From: Saccharicrinis fermentans DSM 9555 = JCM 21142
Lineage (GTDB): Bacteria > Bacteroidota > Bacteroidia > Bacteroidales > Marinilabiliaceae
Length of the DNA stretch: 64,000 bases
Direction: 5' to 3'
NCBI RefSeq assembly: GCF_000517085.1
Contig: NZ_KI912107.1
Location: forward strand, 1,736,398 to 1,800,397
Shown here in pieces: positions 7,492 to 56,275 of the stretch. Under the pieces are notes generated by a model, which saw only the letters and a program-made list of their open reading frames with translations, ran no database searches and was not told the DNA's origin. Each line of letters opens with the position of its first letter. Positions within the stretch are counted from its first letter, which is position 1. Position numbers and translations under genes: made by a program.

Positions 7492-8916
7492 TCAATCCTT
7501 TACACAGCGCACAGAGAAACCCATTTCCATGGCTGCACTAGTTATGAATGCTTCTCCATAATTATGAAATATTTCAAGAATTTCAACAAGTGAATACTCC
7601 TCTGTTACACTCCACCAGAAACCTCTTTCACCCTTCTTATAAAATTTTCCATTATTACCGCGACGACCTCCCGGTAAAGCTGAAAAGCCAATTTTATTGG
7701 TGGCCCCTACATTAGGACTTGCCCAATATGCTGATTCATTCTCCTTCAGTACGCCTCCAGCAATTTCCTCTCCTCCCAAATATTCAAACAAAGTCATCCA
7801 TTCCGAAGCTGTTGGTATATGCCAACCTTTGGGGGCTAACATCCCTTTATTTACTGCATACCAATTATATAAACACCCGTAAGTCGCCAAAGTATCAACA
7901 TCCTTACTATTGTTATAAATACAGTAAGCCCCTGTTTCTAGCTTAGACCATTCTGCACCATCCGCCACATAAGGAATAGCCGTACCATCGTTATAAGTGG
8001 TACTTCGCAAATTTTCTGCCATCCAGGTTTGAGTACCTATGGTTATGGTTTTATAGCTATTACCATCCTGGTCAGTCATGGTACCATAAGTAACATCATA
8101 GTCTATATCTGGTATTGGTACTTCCTCTTTTACAGGCTCAACATCTTCTTTCTCGGCTTCTTTTTTGCTTTCATCGAAATACAAATAACCCGTAAAGTCA
8201 TTTTTACCATGTTGAGCGCCTAAACTTTTCATGTATGCAGCAATGGCTTCGTGTTCTTTGTAGGGCATCCAGCCCTGATGATCTTCAGAGCGCGCATAAG
8301 CAATAGCATAATCCAAAGGACTATTCCCATCCAATGCACATAAATTAATATCTGCTCCTGCAGCTACCACTGCTTTTACGGTTGCCAGATCTCCTGCAGC
8401 CATGGCATGTAAAAGAACAGTTACACCGAAGCCCTCAGTACTATCTCGTGAATTAATATCCAAACCCATATCTACCAATACGGGTATCATCTTTTCACGA
8501 CCCCCACAGGCCGCCAAATGCAAAGCATTTAATTTACGACTGGTACTTACTGCATGAATATTGGCTCCTTTTTCAACCAAGTACTTAACAATCTTCACCG
8601 CCTCCCATTCTACTGCTTCTAACTCTTCTGCTGTATAATGACTTTGTCTTTTCAATGTCTCTAAAGCACCTGCTGCATTTAAAAAGGGCGTATTTGTGGG
8701 GTTTCTACCTTTGTAAATATAATCTATTTCAGCACCCCTTTCTATTAACTCTTTTATTCTTAACTCAAACGATCCTTCCCAAATCTGATTTGTTTCTATC
8801 CATAAATACGTACTAAGGTCTTCAACAGTAGAATCATCATAATTAGGACGTATTTGACTTTGACACTGGCATAGTATGCACAGATATACAAATATTGCTA
8901 TAATAGATGTTTTCAT
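7492..8916 (-). CDS. ankyrin-repeat protein with C-terminal FISUMP domain, exported
   Basis: 474 residues. A signal peptide (MKTSIIAIFVYLCILCQCQS) is probably cleaved as a lipoprotein at one of the cysteines. Residues ~40-240 hold ankyrin repeats (e.g. LNALHLAACGGREKMIPVLV, GVTVLLHAMAAGDLATVKAV, GNSPLDYAIAYA). An acidic Lys/Glu linker (about 248-268) leads into a FISUMP domain (Fibrobacter succinogenes major paralogous domain, TIGR02145): KTITIGTQTWMAENLRSTTY, CLYNWYAVN, GWHIPTASEWMTL, ALPGGRRGNNG and a final GFSVRCVKD. Both domains are protein- or surface-interaction modules; joining them in one protein is unusual. Its leader carries a tandem array of a 90-bp repeat. Function unknown. Confidence 0.88.
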   Translation of the reverse strand: MKTSIIAIFVYLCILCQCQSQIRPNYDDSTVEDLSTYLWIETNQIWEGSFELRIKELIERGAEIDYIYKGRNPTNTPFLNAAGALETLKRQSHYTAEELEAVEWEAVKIVKYLVEKGANIHAVSTSRKLNALHLAACGGREKMIPVLVDMGLDINSRDSTEGFGVTVLLHAMAAGDLATVKAVVAAGADINLCALDGNSPLDYAIAYARSEDHQGWMPYKEHEAIAAYMKSLGAQHGKNDFTGYLYFDESKKEAEKEDVEPVKEEVPIPDIDYDVTYGTMTDQDGNSYKTITIGTQTWMAENLRSTTYNDGTAIPYVADGAEWSKLETGAYCIYNNSKDVDTLATYGCLYNWYAVNKGMLAPKGWHIPTASEWMTLFEYLGGEEIAGGVLKENESAYWASPNVGATNKIGFSALPGGRRGNNGKFYKKGERGFWWSVTEEYSLVEILEIFHNYGEAFITSAAMEMGFSVRCVKD

Positions 8917-9186
8917 ATGTTTATAATTTGTTTCTTATGGTCATATGGAACTCGCCGTGATAATCATTCACCTGTGTGAGAGATCACTCTCATGGCTCGT
9001 TTCATATGATTATAATTAAATTTTTAATGACTACATGAAATTAGCCTGAATCAATCATATCCCTGTATATGAAGCAATTCCCTTAGATCGTTTCATAAGT
9101 CTAAACACAATTTTTAATGGACACATAGAACTCACAAAAACTAATCATACTCCTATACTAGAATTAATTTTCATGACTTTTTTCAT
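8914..9186 (-). repeat. three tandem copies of a ~90-bp leader repeat
   Basis: Three head-to-tail units of 89, 91 and 90 bases (8914-9002, 9003-9093, 9094-9183). Read toward the gene, each has a conserved front (ATGAAACGAGCCATG-like), a middle (ACACAGG.g.ATGATT) and a rear (GGCGAGTTCCATATGACC), and ends in catATG(A). The last unit ends on the real start codon of the ankyrin/FISUMP gene. The unit nearest the gene matches most closely the copy before the GH10 gene at 56.1 kb. This array fills the whole gap between the gene and the broken gene upstream; no other feature is visible. Confidence 0.8.
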
Positions 9187-15336: not shown

Positions 15337-16545
15337 TTAATTCGTTGTTAAGAACTTCATATCCAATATTTTCTTTTTATGCAAAACGGGCTTATAGGGA
15401 ATCGTAAAGAAAAAAGTAGACCCTTTACCTGGCGTTGAAGTAAACCAAATTTTACCCCCCAGCAATTCTACAGATGCTTTTGATATAGCCAAACCGAGCC
15501 CACTACCTTCATATTTTCTTGAATAACATCCTTCATCACCTTGACGAAAACAATCAAATATGATTTCCTTATATTGAGGAGATATCCCTATACCAGTATC
15601 CTCTACCGAAAACATCAACTCTGTTTCATTAATAATCTTGTAGCATATCTTCACATAACCATCGTTGGTAAACTTTATTGCATTATCAATAAGCACATTA
15701 AGTATTTGGGTTAATTTATTTCTATCGGCCATCACCTTATCTTCATCCTTTTCCAATTCTCCCTGAATAAATAAATCAATACATGCCTTGTCCTTAACTT
15801 TAATACTAGCCATGGCACTGGCATACAAATCCTCCATTACTTCCCCTAACGAAAAAACACTCTCCAACAAAGGAGTCTGACTTACCATCAAATTCGACAT
15901 CTCAATATAGCTATCTATTTGTTGCATTAGGCGATCTCCAGAATACTTTATATTATTGAAGAAATCTTGCTTTTCTTCTTGTTTTATATTGGGCTCCACT
16001 AGGAGGTGCGAGAAACCAATAATCGCATTTAAGGGCGTACGAATTTCATGGCTAATATTAGCAATAAATGTTGATTTTAAACGGTCGCTTTCTTCTGCCT
16101 TATTCTTGATAATAATCAATTCAGTATTTTGTTGAATCAATTTTCGTTCCACCGCCTTTAGCTTCTTGTTTAATGTATATAGGTAGTCAACAGTAAATAA
16201 TAAAACAAAATTAAGACAAGTCCCTAAAATTGTAGACAAAGACATCATCACTCCATAATCCACTTCGAGGATATGTATAGCAACGAAGCGATGTGCAATT
16301 AATAACAGTTGTACACCTATAGCATAATATAAGTTAAACGCCCAATATGTCAACAAAACTGGTATTATTGAAACTATTAACATTGTATTTCCAATGGACG
16401 GATATACAGTATAATATGAACTTACATATACAAAAAGCATGGCTATAGATAAAAATTTAGCGCATAGTAATTTAGACATGCGTTTTATCCCTAAGATCAT
16501 ATTGCAGTTATAATATTTTTTCGTGTGTCTAAAACTTATTTTCAT
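15337..16545 (-). CDS. membrane sensor histidine kinase
   Basis: 402 residues. The N-terminal 130 residues form about five hydrophobic membrane segments (e.g. SIAMLFVYVSSYYTVYP, MLIVSIIPVLLTYWAF), then a short coiled coil (NKKLKAVERKLIQQNTELII). The HisKA domain has His in FIANISHEIRTPLNAIIGF (about residue 167) and the ATPase domain has N box LNVLIDNAIKFTN, G1 VEDTGIGI and G2 GSGLGLAISK. No receiver domain and no regulator next door, so it is an orphan kinase. The 5' side carries a partial copy of the 90-bp leader repeat. Confidence 0.9.
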   Translation of the reverse strand: MKISFRHTKKYYNCNMILGIKRMSKLLCAKFLSIAMLFVYVSSYYTVYPSIGNTMLIVSIIPVLLTYWAFNLYYAIGVQLLLIAHRFVAIHILEVDYGVMMSLSTILGTCLNFVLLFTVDYLYTLNKKLKAVERKLIQQNTELIIIKNKAEESDRLKSTFIANISHEIRTPLNAIIGFSHLLVEPNIKQEEKQDFFNNIKYSGDRLMQQIDSYIEMSNLMVSQTPLLESVFSLGEVMEDLYASAMASIKVKDKACIDLFIQGELEKDEDKVMADRNKLTQILNVLIDNAIKFTNDGYVKICYKIINETELMFSVEDTGIGISPQYKEIIFDCFRQGDEGCYSRKYEGSGLGLAISKASVELLGGKIWFTSTPGKGSTFFFTIPYKPVLHKKKILDMKFLTTN

Positions 16546-16612
16546 CTATCACTTAGAGTCTTCCGGTGCTCACAGTTCACTATGTGAGTACAACTCTTAC
16601 ATGACTCATTTC
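16543..16612 (-). repeat. partial copy of the 90-bp leader repeat
   Basis: Immediately upstream of the kinase start, the top strand reads CACTATGTGAGTACAACTC and then CATGACTCATTTCA, matching the distal half of the repeat at 8.9 and 56.2 kb. About 20 bases of the gene-proximal half are missing or diverged. Weakest of the copies. Confidence 0.45.
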
Positions 16613-16692
16613 AGATACTCAAACCCTCAAATTTATAACCTTTACGTGTTAAACAGGATAATGTTATAATTTACACTAAATATTTCAAGTCA

Positions 16693-27208: not shown

Positions 27209-28132
27209 TTATCTTTTCTCCAGATAAGTAGAAGAAACCACTTTCATAGGTACTTCCATACCTTGAGGCATTTGTGAATTCCCTTTCATAGATATGGTTC
27301 CTTCGATATGTTGGCTTTGTTTGCCACTCACAAACCAGCCATCTTCTTGATTAACGATAAATTCTGAATCCTGATTTCCCTTAAGGTTAAAAGACATCTT
27401 CATTCCGTTCATTTCCGATTCTTCACCTAAAGTTGTAATACGACCATTTCCTTTTAACTTCCATTGATTATTAGCAGCATCCGCCAAAGTCCATTCATTA
27501 TTCAATGTAGCCTTTAAAGCAGAGGTCAACTTTGTATTCATGCTCCAGGTATCACCCACTTTTTTGTTTTCTGAGGGATACATAGAAAGCAACATAGCCA
27601 TATTTCCGCTTAGCGCTTCCTCACCAAAGTGCCCACTCAATGTTTTTCTCATCTGCGAAGCTACCTGCGGCTGAAGATCTCCCATATTATTAACTGCATC
27701 ATTAATCAGTTTATCAATACCATCAATCCTTATTACTTCACCTTGAGGAGTAATCACCATTTTAAAATCCTTTCCTATCACCCCATTATAAATATTAGCC
27801 ACTTTATCATTCGCTTGAACAGGTTTAGAAGAATCATAATTAATATTGAACATCATGCTCTCAATATGAATGATCATTGTTTCAAACGAAGCATTCAATA
27901 TAATATTTTCACCTTCTTTTCCGATGGGAATAAAACGGGTGATGCCCTTGAATTCATTTTTTATTTCCTGTTCGATAATACCCAAAGACTGGGTAATATT
28001 CATTTTTGTTTCTTGATAAAAACGATATTCCTGACCATTTTTTAACTTATACCTTAGTTGATATGATTGGGCATTTATTCCAACTGCACCAACAAAAAGC
28101 ATACACAATACAATAATAGATTTAATTTTCAT
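27209..28132 (-). CDS. exported hypothetical protein (DUF6263-like)
   Basis: 307 residues with a signal peptide (MKIKSIIVLCMLFVGAVGIN/AQ). The mature part starts SYQLRYKLKNGQEYRFYQET and continues as a beta-rich domain with FKMVITPQGEVIRIDGIDKL, typical of Bacteroidota exported proteins of the DUF6263 type; assignment by pattern memory. No catalytic motif seen. Its leader carries one copy of the 90-bp repeat. Confidence 0.7.
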   Translation of the reverse strand: MKIKSIIVLCMLFVGAVGINAQSYQLRYKLKNGQEYRFYQETKMNITQSLGIIEQEIKNEFKGITRFIPIGKEGENIILNASFETMIIHIESMMFNINYDSSKPVQANDKVANIYNGVIGKDFKMVITPQGEVIRIDGIDKLINDAVNNMGDLQPQVASQMRKTLSGHFGEEALSGNMAMLLSMYPSENKKVGDTWSMNTKLTSALKATLNNEWTLADAANNQWKLKGNGRITTLGEESEMNGMKMSFNLKGNQDSEFIVNQEDGWFVSGKQSQHIEGTISMKGNSQMPQGMEVPMKVVSSTYLEKR

Positions 28133-28221
28133 GTCTTAAATTTTTCTTTTAATAGTCACATGGCACTGGCCACAAAGCCATTTATCTATATGAGAAATGC
28201 TTTATCATGACTCGTTTTCAT
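28130..28221 (-). repeat. single copy of the 90-bp leader repeat
   Basis: 89-base unit ending on the start codon of the exported protein. Read toward the gene: CATGAAAACGAGTCATGATAA at the far end, GCCAGTGCCATGTGACTATT and an A-rich stretch up to ATG. It is about as diverged as the outer units of the 8.9-kb array. The rest of the 358-base gap up to the next gene shows only AT-rich DNA and a -7 box. Confidence 0.7.
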
Positions 28222-28467
28222 GTGTTTAAAAATGAGCGAAACTTCATTAACCAGTGCAAATTTCAACTGCAAACATATATTACCTCTCATTTGCCCTGGT
28301 GTGCTGATTTCTGATATACATTAATTATTAGTTACCCTATGGGCTAAGCGTATAAAAATACATCTTATTTGCTTTTTTACAGCCCTGCTAATTAAATATT
28401 TCCACATTTATAATAATTCTATATTAATCTAATTTCGTGCCACAATTCAAATCAACAAGCTTTTTAC

Positions 28468-54983: not shown

Positions 54984-56117
54984 CTAGTTTTTCGCTAAAT
55001 AAATTAACGTGTTATATACCGGTTTAGGCTGGTTGTTTCTATCGAACAACAAAGGATAATCTGTACGTCCTTCAATGGGCCAATAATTACGCCATGTTTG
55101 ACTATCATTAACACCCCAAAAGGTAATACGGCTAATCTTATCATTATGCTTTAAGTAGACCTTAAACAAATTTGCATAATAATCGGCCAAGGCCTTTTGT
55201 ATCGAATCAGGCACAGCTTCCACGTAAGGATTATATTCAGGTTTATTTTGATAAGATTGACTTACCTCGGCAGTAATTTCTTCAGCAGGAAAAGGTAAAA
55301 CCGACACATCCAATTCGGTTATCATCACTTTCACACCCGTATTGGCAAAAGCCATAATACTCTCTTCTATTTCCTTTGTTAAATCCTTATTTAAACCATA
55401 GTGGGCCTGCATTCCAATTGCATCCACTCTTAAACCTTTGGCTTTTAAATTTTCTATTAAGTGAACAGCTCCCTTTCGTTTTTCAGGTTTGTACATATTG
55501 TAGTCATTATAATATAACTCAGCATCTTGGTCTGCCTCATGCGCAAATTGAAAAGCCAACTCAATATATTCAGGTCCAATAATATGATAAAATTTACTTT
55601 TTCTTAAACTTCCATCTTCATTTAAAGCTTCATTTACAACATCCCACCCTTTTATTTTTCCCCGGTATCTGCCTACAACTTCATGTATATGATTTTTCAT
55701 TCTTTCGATCAAGGTATCTCTTGACACGTCATTGCCTTCCTTATCCACAAAAAACCAAGCAGGTGCCTGGGAATGCCAAACCAAGTTATGTCCAACAACA
55801 AAAGCTTTGTTTTTTTGACCTAGCTCCACCAATTTATCCGACTCAGTAAAGTCAAATACGCCTGCTTGCGGTTGCAGAACTTCACTTTTCATACTATTTT
55901 CTGCCACAATAGAGTTAAACTGGCTGGCTACCAACTTTAAGGCTGCAGTATCCTCACCTAATATTTGAGCTGAGTTCAAAGCCGCACCTATCAAGAACTT
56001 TCCTTCAAATGCTTTTGCCAGCGAAGTTACCTCTTGTTTATGATGTGAAACATTGTTACAGGCTAAAAAACCTAATGATAAAATTCCGATACCCAGGGTT
56101 ATTTTAATTTTTTTCAT
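54984..56117 (-). CDS. GH10 endo-1,4-beta-xylanase, lipoprotein
   Basis: 377 residues from ATG 56117. Lipobox LGFLACNN gives an outer-membrane lipoprotein. One GH10 barrel: start KFLIGAALNSAQILGEDTAA, NSMKSEVLQPQAG, HNLVWHSQAPAWF, acid/base Glu in GWDVVNEAL, nucleophile Glu in VMITELDVSVLP, and the C-terminal WGVNDSQTW. It cleaves internal beta-1,4 bonds of xylan. The leader carries the 90-bp repeat, which ends on the start codon. The MFS gene lies 158 bases upstream. Confidence 0.95.
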   Translation of the reverse strand: MKKIKITLGIGILSLGFLACNNVSHHKQEVTSLAKAFEGKFLIGAALNSAQILGEDTAALKLVASQFNSIVAENSMKSEVLQPQAGVFDFTESDKLVELGQKNKAFVVGHNLVWHSQAPAWFFVDKEGNDVSRDTLIERMKNHIHEVVGRYRGKIKGWDVVNEALNEDGSLRKSKFYHIIGPEYIELAFQFAHEADQDAELYYNDYNMYKPEKRKGAVHLIENLKAKGLRVDAIGMQAHYGLNKDLTKEIEESIMAFANTGVKVMITELDVSVLPFPAEEITAEVSQSYQNKPEYNPYVEAVPDSIQKALADYYANLFKVYLKHNDKISRITFWGVNDSQTWRNYWPIEGRTDYPLLFDRNNQPKPVYNTLIYLAKN

Positions 56118-56204
56118 ATGTTTATATTTTTCTTTCAAAGGTCATATGGAACTCGCCTAAATGAATCATCCTCCTGTGTGTGAAATAATTACCAAGGCTC
56201 GTTT
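56115..56204 (-). repeat. single copy of the 90-bp leader repeat before GH10
   Basis: Best match to the gene-proximal unit at 8.9 kb: shared GAAACGAGCC, CACACAGG, GGCGAGTTCCATATGACC and a final ATAAACATATG whose last ATG is the gene start. It contains a 7-codon frame (MTFERKI) that stops 4 bases before the start codon. Confidence 0.8.
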
Positions 56205-56275
56205 CAGTGCACCTATATTATTGATTACTTACTCATTAAAATCCGAACTATTCTAACTTAGCCCTTCAAGCTGCA

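Follow-up and report, generated by a model that had tools for sequence, protein, structure and literature searches.

A short repeat at the start codons of different genes in Saccharicrinis fermentans is mobile, as empty sites, identical copies before different genes and its position show, and the present data favor, with moderate confidence, a model of a non-autonomous mRNA leader directed to CANATGAAA-like sites, where it restores the start codon and probably serves to switch translation. By profile search, the window, that is, the whole stretch of 64,000 nucleotides analysed here, contains five clear units of family 1, one of family 2 and a probable decayed unit (Table 1). A first-pass annotation had described one leader repeat before an ankyrin/FISUMP, a DUF6263-like and a GH10 xylanase gene; profile search and Pfam confirm all three, and its span for the GH10 copy (56115-56204) is correct to within a few bases. 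It had also stated that the copies share the orientation of their genes and end at the start codon, which is true of the clear copies in the window, where the last unit of each group stops at the gene's ATG (56117-56115 in the GH10 gene). The last unit of the triplet before the ankyrin gene belongs to the youngest subfamily, being 97.9% identical to the young subfamily sequence. A partial copy had further been claimed for the leader of a histidine kinase, a gene whose HisKA and HATPase_c domains are confirmed by Pfam. By eye this is indeed a decayed unit, with its terminal ATG changed to ACG and the ORF start inside the unit, although the match is not significant alone. The kinase (window 16545-15337) seems to begin within the decayed unit, with a new N-terminus, MKISFRHTKK.... 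An Rfam search of the window gave no match above gathering score; over 501 bases at E <= 5, the only match was one of 14.5 bits to an L19 leader, beside the unit.

Table 1. Repeat units in the window, parts of the GH10 unit, and downstream genes.
Feature	Position	Strand	Basis
Family-1 unit before GH10 xylanase gene	56113..56206	-	nhmmer, 90.3 bits; genome-wide copies
5' arm of helix P1, former start-codon position	56201..56207	-	Alignments, pair counts
Conserved apical loop of GH10 unit, TTTCACACACAGGAGGATGATT	56164..56185	-	Conserved in family 1; core common to family 2
Internal anti-start "guide" of GH10 unit, GTTCCATATG	56143..56152	-	Potential pairing with 5' arm and 3' end; pair counts
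3' end, CATATGAAA: last three bases of unit, start codon and Lys codon of gene	56112..56120	-	
GH10 gene, downstream of unit	54984..56117	-	Pfam PF00331, E 1.2e-100
Family-1 unit, first of tandem triplet before Ank/FISUMP gene	9092..9185	-	38.0 bits
Family-1 unit, second of triplet	9001..9095	-	50.5 bits
Family-1 unit, third of triplet, adjoining Ank/FISUMP gene	8912..9004	-	73.2 bits
Ankyrin/Fib_succ_major gene, downstream of triplet	7492..8916	-	Pfam Ank and Fib_succ_major
Family-2 unit, in tandem with the family-1 unit at 28128..28217	28218..28300	-	57.5 bits, family-2 profile
Family-1 unit adjoining DUF6263 gene	28128..28217	-	44.8 bits
DUF6263 gene, downstream of unit	27209..28132	-	Pfam PF19777, E 5e-47
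Probable decayed family-1 unit, histidine-kinase leader	16520..16613	-	7.5 bits, E 0.28, below significance

About 92 bp long, the unit begins with ATGAAACGAGCC and ends with AAACAT, immediately 5' of the gene's ATGAAA, and head-to-tail units have one ATGAAA in common at each joint. It consists of a 5' arm (ATGAAAC GA GCC, the first part being CTGAAAC in the GH10 unit and ATGAAAC in most aligned copies), a short variable stem, the conserved loop TTTCACACACAGGNGNATGATT and a 3' arm (GGC GA GTTCCAT), followed by the triplet NNN, a linker rich in A and T, and n'n'n' immediately before the start codon. The apical loop core (also given as CACACAGGNGNATGATT) is common to both families; family 2, ATGAAACTGGCC...CACACAGGTGAATGATT...GGCTAGTGAAGTTTCGCTAATTTTT, resembles family 1 in loop core and position. 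ATGAAA flanks the unit on both sides, as a target-site duplication would, but the right-hand hexamer may be part of the element itself. No exact inverted match longer than three bases exists between the two 20-base ends. An upstream-ORF attenuator, in which the 5' ATGAAACGAGCC would open a 13-codon peptide (MKRAM...SHTG*), could be read from a frame open in many copies and a similar look in family 2. However, the distance from that ATG to the loop TGA, taken modulo 3, is distributed 39/10/4 among own-genome copies and 35/31/9 among those of relatives, and 53 of 128 copies stop at the loop TGA. Such an attenuator is thus highly improbable, and a leader peptide from the first ATGAAACGAGCC was rejected because its reading frame is not conserved.

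Across the 5.98-Mb own genome, the 18-base core with up to three mismatches matches 204 times (99 and 105 per strand), against a single match for the reversed-pattern control; these counts and the profile hits exclude a chance origin of the repeat. The dispersal before unrelated genes that had been described for the window therefore extends genome-wide, with neither random placement nor an absence of other copies. A sequence-only model gave 166 matches in the own genome and, having scored just 150 of 5793 candidates, yields counts that are lower bounds. Profile search of 864 kb (the window and two 400-kb pieces) returned 56 hits at E <= 1e-4, and family 2 gave 16 hits in 1.19 Mb of the own genome, in tandem with family 1. 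Among relatives, 24 of 40 have matches at E <= 0.001, comprising 20 of 24 in the same family and 4 of 16 in other families of the order; G009, G013, G014 and G022 are rich in copies, and G010, G012, G017 and G024 gave no match. Spread has been recent: a young subfamily comprises 32 copies at least 90% identical to one sequence, nine of them identical, in a 1.25-Mb own-genome sample. Of these, 26 lie at ORF starts, three in 5'UTRs, one in tandem and two without a recognised gene, and the genes behind them were judged by eye to be different. A blastn search of a window copy against plasmid and phage record collections gave no match; in IMG/VR, 2 of 16 fetched contigs have a unit before an ORF (27.8 and 21.4 bits). 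These viral units lie at L210:862 and L278:7025, and that of L278 is without the apical stem-loop while keeping P1 and the guide-end complementarity.

Mobility is seen at empty sites. Two units stand at rsmA in the own genome, between the ATG and a promoter/5'UTR that aligns with three congeners, and a unit is present in none of the 28 relatives with a match to the gene. The own copy before comB matches the young subfamily sequence exactly; a unit is present in none of the nine relatives with a match to comB, and congeners have the same upstream gene (MATE-like by eye) with no unit between. The stop of this upstream ORF (ATA TGA, read by hand) falls within the left ATATGAAA, and that hexamer is therefore the native one. 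For GH10, 17 loci of relatives, several of them far relatives, were compared; among the 16 with upstream DNA, only L040 (Labilibacter marinus) has a unit there, and it is diverged. Three paralogous genes of a single own-genome array, whose flanks are nearly identical, bear two, one and two units, and different subfamilies occur within one array. An ancient, immobile cis-regulatory leader, riboswitch-like or protein-binding and inherited with the genes of a regulon, would account for a loop core conserved in two families, an alternative anti-start helix and the position at start codons. However, the empty sites at conserved genes, the identical copies before different genes, the mixed subfamilies in one array and the two viral contigs with units at gene starts contradict it as the sole explanation, and as such it is improbable; it survives as the regulatory half of the favored model. 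The mobile leader, or MITE with start-codon preference, that the first-pass annotation had considered is upheld as to mobility and start preference by empty sites, identical copies and the placement of 50 of 58 non-tandem units at starts (below), but not as a strict MITE, as terminal inverted repeats are absent.

Position was classed for 161 units in 1.25 Mb of the own genome, a sample partly picked around strong hits and in some cases for adjoining hits, and 89 of these directly adjoin an ORF start (ORF of at least 60 codons). Among the 74 units of at least 70 bits, 50 stand at an ORF start, 16 before another unit, five in a 5'UTR and three in none of these positions; the same classes hold 23, 12, six and five of the 46 units of 45-70 bits, and 16, 11, seven and seven of the 41 units below 45 bits. 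Since the classes shift in this way with falling bit score, decayed copies are more often off starts. Within the contiguous 864 kb, the 21 units of at least 70 bits divide into 12 at starts, six in tandem and three in 5'UTRs. Leaving tandem units aside, 50 of 58 units of at least 70 bits are at ORF starts (12 of 15 when only the contiguous 864 kb is counted), against a background, resting on a crude gene caller, in which 145 of 352 non-genic ATGAAA sites are starts, or 126 of 268 with units masked. The excess has binomial probabilities of 2e-12 and 6e-10 against the two backgrounds (0.003 and 0.01 for the contiguous 864 kb), and a recount without self-picked regions indicates that such regions do not drive the tandem and start figures. 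The excess could partly reflect survival. In relatives (loci L027-L035 and L126-L175), 53 of 67 hits precede an ORF of at least 60 codons, with its ATG at the end of the unit or at most 30 bases away.

Genes bearing units include, by eye, rsmA, comB, a peptidase-T-like and an ATP-synthase-beta-like gene. The prevalence of exported proteins that the first-pass annotation had remarked upon is not a property of the repeat: by a crude hydropathy test, a signal-like N-terminus is present at 56 of 89 unit-bearing starts and at 80 of 119 unit-free ATGAAA starts, against 305 of 698 ATG starts. Many unit-bearing genes encode exported proteins because they have an ATGAAA start, and an exported-protein regulon was rejected, as the bias equals that of unit-free ATGAAA starts.

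The sites at which units stand point to a target preference. Young units lie directly behind another unit in 21 of 32 cases; among other family-1 units with a complete left end this is so for 9 of 79 (p 2e-8), and for 4 of 36 when only those of at least 70 bits are counted. Without self-picked regions the figures are 10 of 12 young against 9 of 72 others; for the contiguous 864 kb they are 5 of 6 young and 4 of 38 others (p 0.0006). As a point against such targeting, about 4 of 11 young flanks with no called previous unit resemble unit remnants. For 41 units of at least 60 bits that follow no recognised unit, position -1 of the left flank is T in 76% and position -2 is A in 68%; at 112 unit-free ATGAAA starts the frequencies are 29% and 41%. 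In relatives, the left hexamer is exactly ATGAAA in 97 of 108 units located by a loose pattern. Outside genes in the 864 kb, CATATGAAA occurs at 31 sites, 27 of them unit-borne; landing on it would therefore produce tandem arrays and, together with loss of intragenic insertions, much of the start-codon bias. In relatives, left flank and guide did not covary at any of the three positions (n = 108; pairs in 35, 66 and 46 units, shuffle means 27.9, 60.7 and 43.0, maxima 43, 71 and 51), and guide-target matching therefore rests on the own genome.

Two pairings within the leader are apparent. The internal anti-start sequence, UUCCAUNNN, has potential to pair with either the unit's 5' AUGAAAC or the gene's NNNAUGAAA; both P1 and the guide-start helix need the UUCCAU bases and are thus mutually exclusive. 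Relatives gave 142 hits, of which 113 are distinct units with a readable guide and end; 86 of these, from 18 genomes, were aligned after removal of truncated units, units of unusual length and any with a hairpin nested at the guide. For P1 (AUGAAAC-GA-GCC with GGC-GA-GUUCCAU), two-sided cells number 17, where shuffles average 4.3 and slid controls give 1-4. For the guide-start helix (UUCCAUNNN with n'n'n'AUGAAA) they number 39, where shuffles average 12.0 and slid controls give 1-3; 93.9% of its cells are paired, compared with 88.4% in shuffled and 19-65% in slid sets. The guide position N1 shows five pair types in the 86 units (GC 32, AU 14, CG 14, GU 7, UA 6) and pairs in 84 of the 113 (shuffle mean 35.5, maximum 52), N2 pairs in 93 (mean 83.4, maximum 90), and N3 adds nothing (90, against a mean of 90.6). 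All three positions pair in 66 of the 113 (mean 26.1, maximum 39) and in 45 of 69 own-genome units (mean 33.6, maximum 42); own-genome comparisons of guide-end pairing between old and young copies, or start and non-start copies, involve few non-start copies. Covariance, to which the first-pass annotation had looked as a check on an RNA function, is thus supported in part: two-sided cells exceed shuffles and slid controls, but pairs with two-sided change and the number of pair types, the measures least inflated by relatedness, are not above shuffles, which reach them in 254 and 67 of 500 trials for P1 and in 287 and 141 of 500 for the guide-start helix. Fold z-scores are modest and not better for the sense strand (-1.72 against -1.98, 57 family-1 units), folding energies give no separation of the strands, and RNAalifold on the raw alignment recovers the outer helix only.

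REP and REPIN elements, which accompany RAYT (TnpA-REP), are small, hairpin-forming, non-autonomous and clustered, with many non-coding copies, and the repeat described here is likewise small, hairpin-forming, multi-copy, non-coding, non-autonomous and clustered. PATEs, single-hairpin relics derived from IS200/IS605, have no terminal inverted repeats, a hairpin, a short target word and an internal sequence that pairs with the ends; the unit agrees with them in the first three, its internal sequence could pair with both ends, and insertion beside a fixed short target, typical of IS200/IS605 elements, is found for the unit. It is possible, though we consider it rather unlikely, that the unit belongs with REP/PATE-like relatives of IS200/IS605 as a non-autonomous element with one hairpin, which a Y1 HUH transposase would move in the form of single-stranded DNA. 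On the strand opposite the gene, its order would be a TTTCAT cleavage site, a linker, the guide, the hairpin and a second TTTCAT cleavage site. The absence of terminal inverted repeats, a hairpin whose guide could pair with both ends, the target word ATGAAA, the tandem arrays and the presence of Y1_Tnp genes in 34 of 41 genomes are consistent with this. So is an A.C mismatch that P1 retains on the sense strand (132 of 163), which is a G.T wobble on the opposite strand and from which most of the excess of A.C over G.U (175 against 59 over 13 P1 positions) derives. However, once the outlying positions (3 and 12) and the G-A positions (7 and 8) are set aside, sense G.U exceeds A.C (53 against 25), which points the other way. 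Moreover, the own genome, despite its young subfamily, has only four Y1_Tnp matches, all in short or interrupted frames, and no Y1_Tnp match was obtained in G014 (98% complete, 35 matches, copies up to 96.8% alike), G023 (95% complete, 17 matches) and G022 (76% complete, 56 matches). RAYT/Y1 is disfavored as mobilizer, as presence of a Y1 transposase does not track unit copy number. The unit also differs from REP/REPIN in having no link to a Y1 gene, in its unit of about 92 nt with a guide, in strong copies that are co-oriented with and adjoin the start codon, and in tandem units with a common ATGAAA. It differs from PATEs in that one hairpin and one guide serve both ends, that its own genome holds no intact enzyme, and that the guide-hairpin-site order fits only the strand opposite to the gene. 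As a separate observation, RAYT-like (Y1_Tnp) remnants have a common repeated flank, AAGACAAGGCTTTCGATATT... (L037, L039; G000:C3:2742929 and 711386; L015:6956), and three units, two of the young subfamily, are followed by this repeat.

Alternatively, the leader RNA, ending in CAUAUGAAA, could be copied into start codons by a reverse transcriptase primed at TTTCATATG. Sense orientation, location at translation starts and a target word that equals the element's 3' end would fit such RNA-templated insertion, which we regard as unlikely; nothing here tells it from DNA transposition. A site-specific cassette, tyrosine-recombinase or integron-like, with core ATGAAA and consisting only of a recombination site, would likewise explain a short identical core at both ends, tandem arrays with a common core and a folded site. 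The integron attC core consensus is GTTRRRY. However, the 3' arm is GTTCCAT in most copies, and the right boundary lies about 30 nt past that arm, making a cassette of this kind improbable. The search for a mobilizing gene, which covered Y1_Tnp only, found none. An autonomous parent, with unit halves split by a gene, did not appear among the 14 left-end and five right-end stray matches read. These were drawn from loose matches outside called units in 1.19 Mb, namely 81 of 163 for the left end (14 of the 81 being read), 5 of 91 for the right end (all read) and 0 of 54 for the loop; the corresponding family-2 ends gave 1 of 6 and 0 of 12. One or two of the stray right-end matches resemble further diverged units.

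Under the favored model of a mobile mRNA leader, a unit would be inserted in sense orientation at CANATGAAA, which outside genes would mainly mean the ends of earlier units and start codons, mobilized by a putative enzyme acting in trans. Its 3' end (AAACAT joined to ATGAAA) would restore the A-rich leader, the start codon and the Lys codon, whereby the host gene would survive, and the native 5'UTR would remain upstream of the inserted unit. In the predicted RNA hairpin, the anti-start sequence GUUCCAUNNN would be paired with the unit's 5' AUGAAAC; in the alternative fold, GUUCCAUNNN would pair instead with the gene's NNNAUGAAA. The guide may thus serve twice, in that its pairing with NNNATGAAA may help to choose or hold the target and the ends during movement, and the same pairing could block the mRNA start codon and so provide a translation switch. 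A stronger and more tentative version is that the guide-carrying RNA leader itself finds start codons by pairing its anti-start sequence with NNNAUGAAA, inserts, rebuilds the start and leaves an RNA switch behind. Were this the case, a selfish element would be distributing one regulatory leader to unrelated genes, which would make it a novel type of mobile element. The usual view of small mobile repeats is that they avoid genes or break them; this repeat joins and rebuilds the start codon and takes the place of the ribosome-loading region. A working anti-start helix would mean that a mobile element had rewired the translation of many genes together, and a new regulon would have arisen by an uncommon route. 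As one internal sequence could pair with both ends and with preferred targets, guided insertion is directly testable.

The nearest known kinds are REP/PATE-like elements and translational riboswitches; a literature search of open-licence papers found no description of this repeat or of its combination of features. Its likeness to translational riboswitches and thermosensors lies in the predicted anti-start sequence with two exclusive partners at the start codon, whereas the unit is mobile, stands before many different genes and matched no Rfam family. HEARO and IscB (OMEGA RNA) elements integrate beside ATGA or GTGA and place a structured RNA in a mobile element; the unit resembles them in its structured RNA and in integration beside an ATGA-type site, but is much shorter, has no internal protein gene and gave no Rfam match in the window. 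MITEs and the Correia and ERIC repeats are short, dispersed non-coding elements near genes, as are the units, which differ in the absence of terminal inverted repeats and in the exact join to the start codon. The GibS/FopS RNAs of Bacteroides form a multi-copy Bacteroidales family, also present in a phage, that acts near start codons, with 14 stand-alone sRNAs having their own promoter and terminator and acting in trans (PMC11697453). They share with the units multiple copies in Bacteroidales, phage occurrence and a place near start codons, but the units are cis leaders and GibS/FopS are trans sRNAs (PMC11697453).

Other small sequences were seen in and around the units. Small palindromes, such as CCCGATAAATCGGG or CCTGCCTAACGGAAGACAGG, are nested within units beside the guide (L128, L135, L153, L034). 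By eye, the unit at G000:C3:4573455 is followed by an apparent group II intron end (AGCCGTATGAGG...CATGTACGGCTT), beginning ATGAAGAACTC. Another dispersed sequence, about TAATAGATTTTCTAATGCATTTTCCGGGTT, lies upstream of genes in the own genome (g800001:202919, g2148000:15367 and g2194000:14269) and is seemingly unrelated to both unit families.
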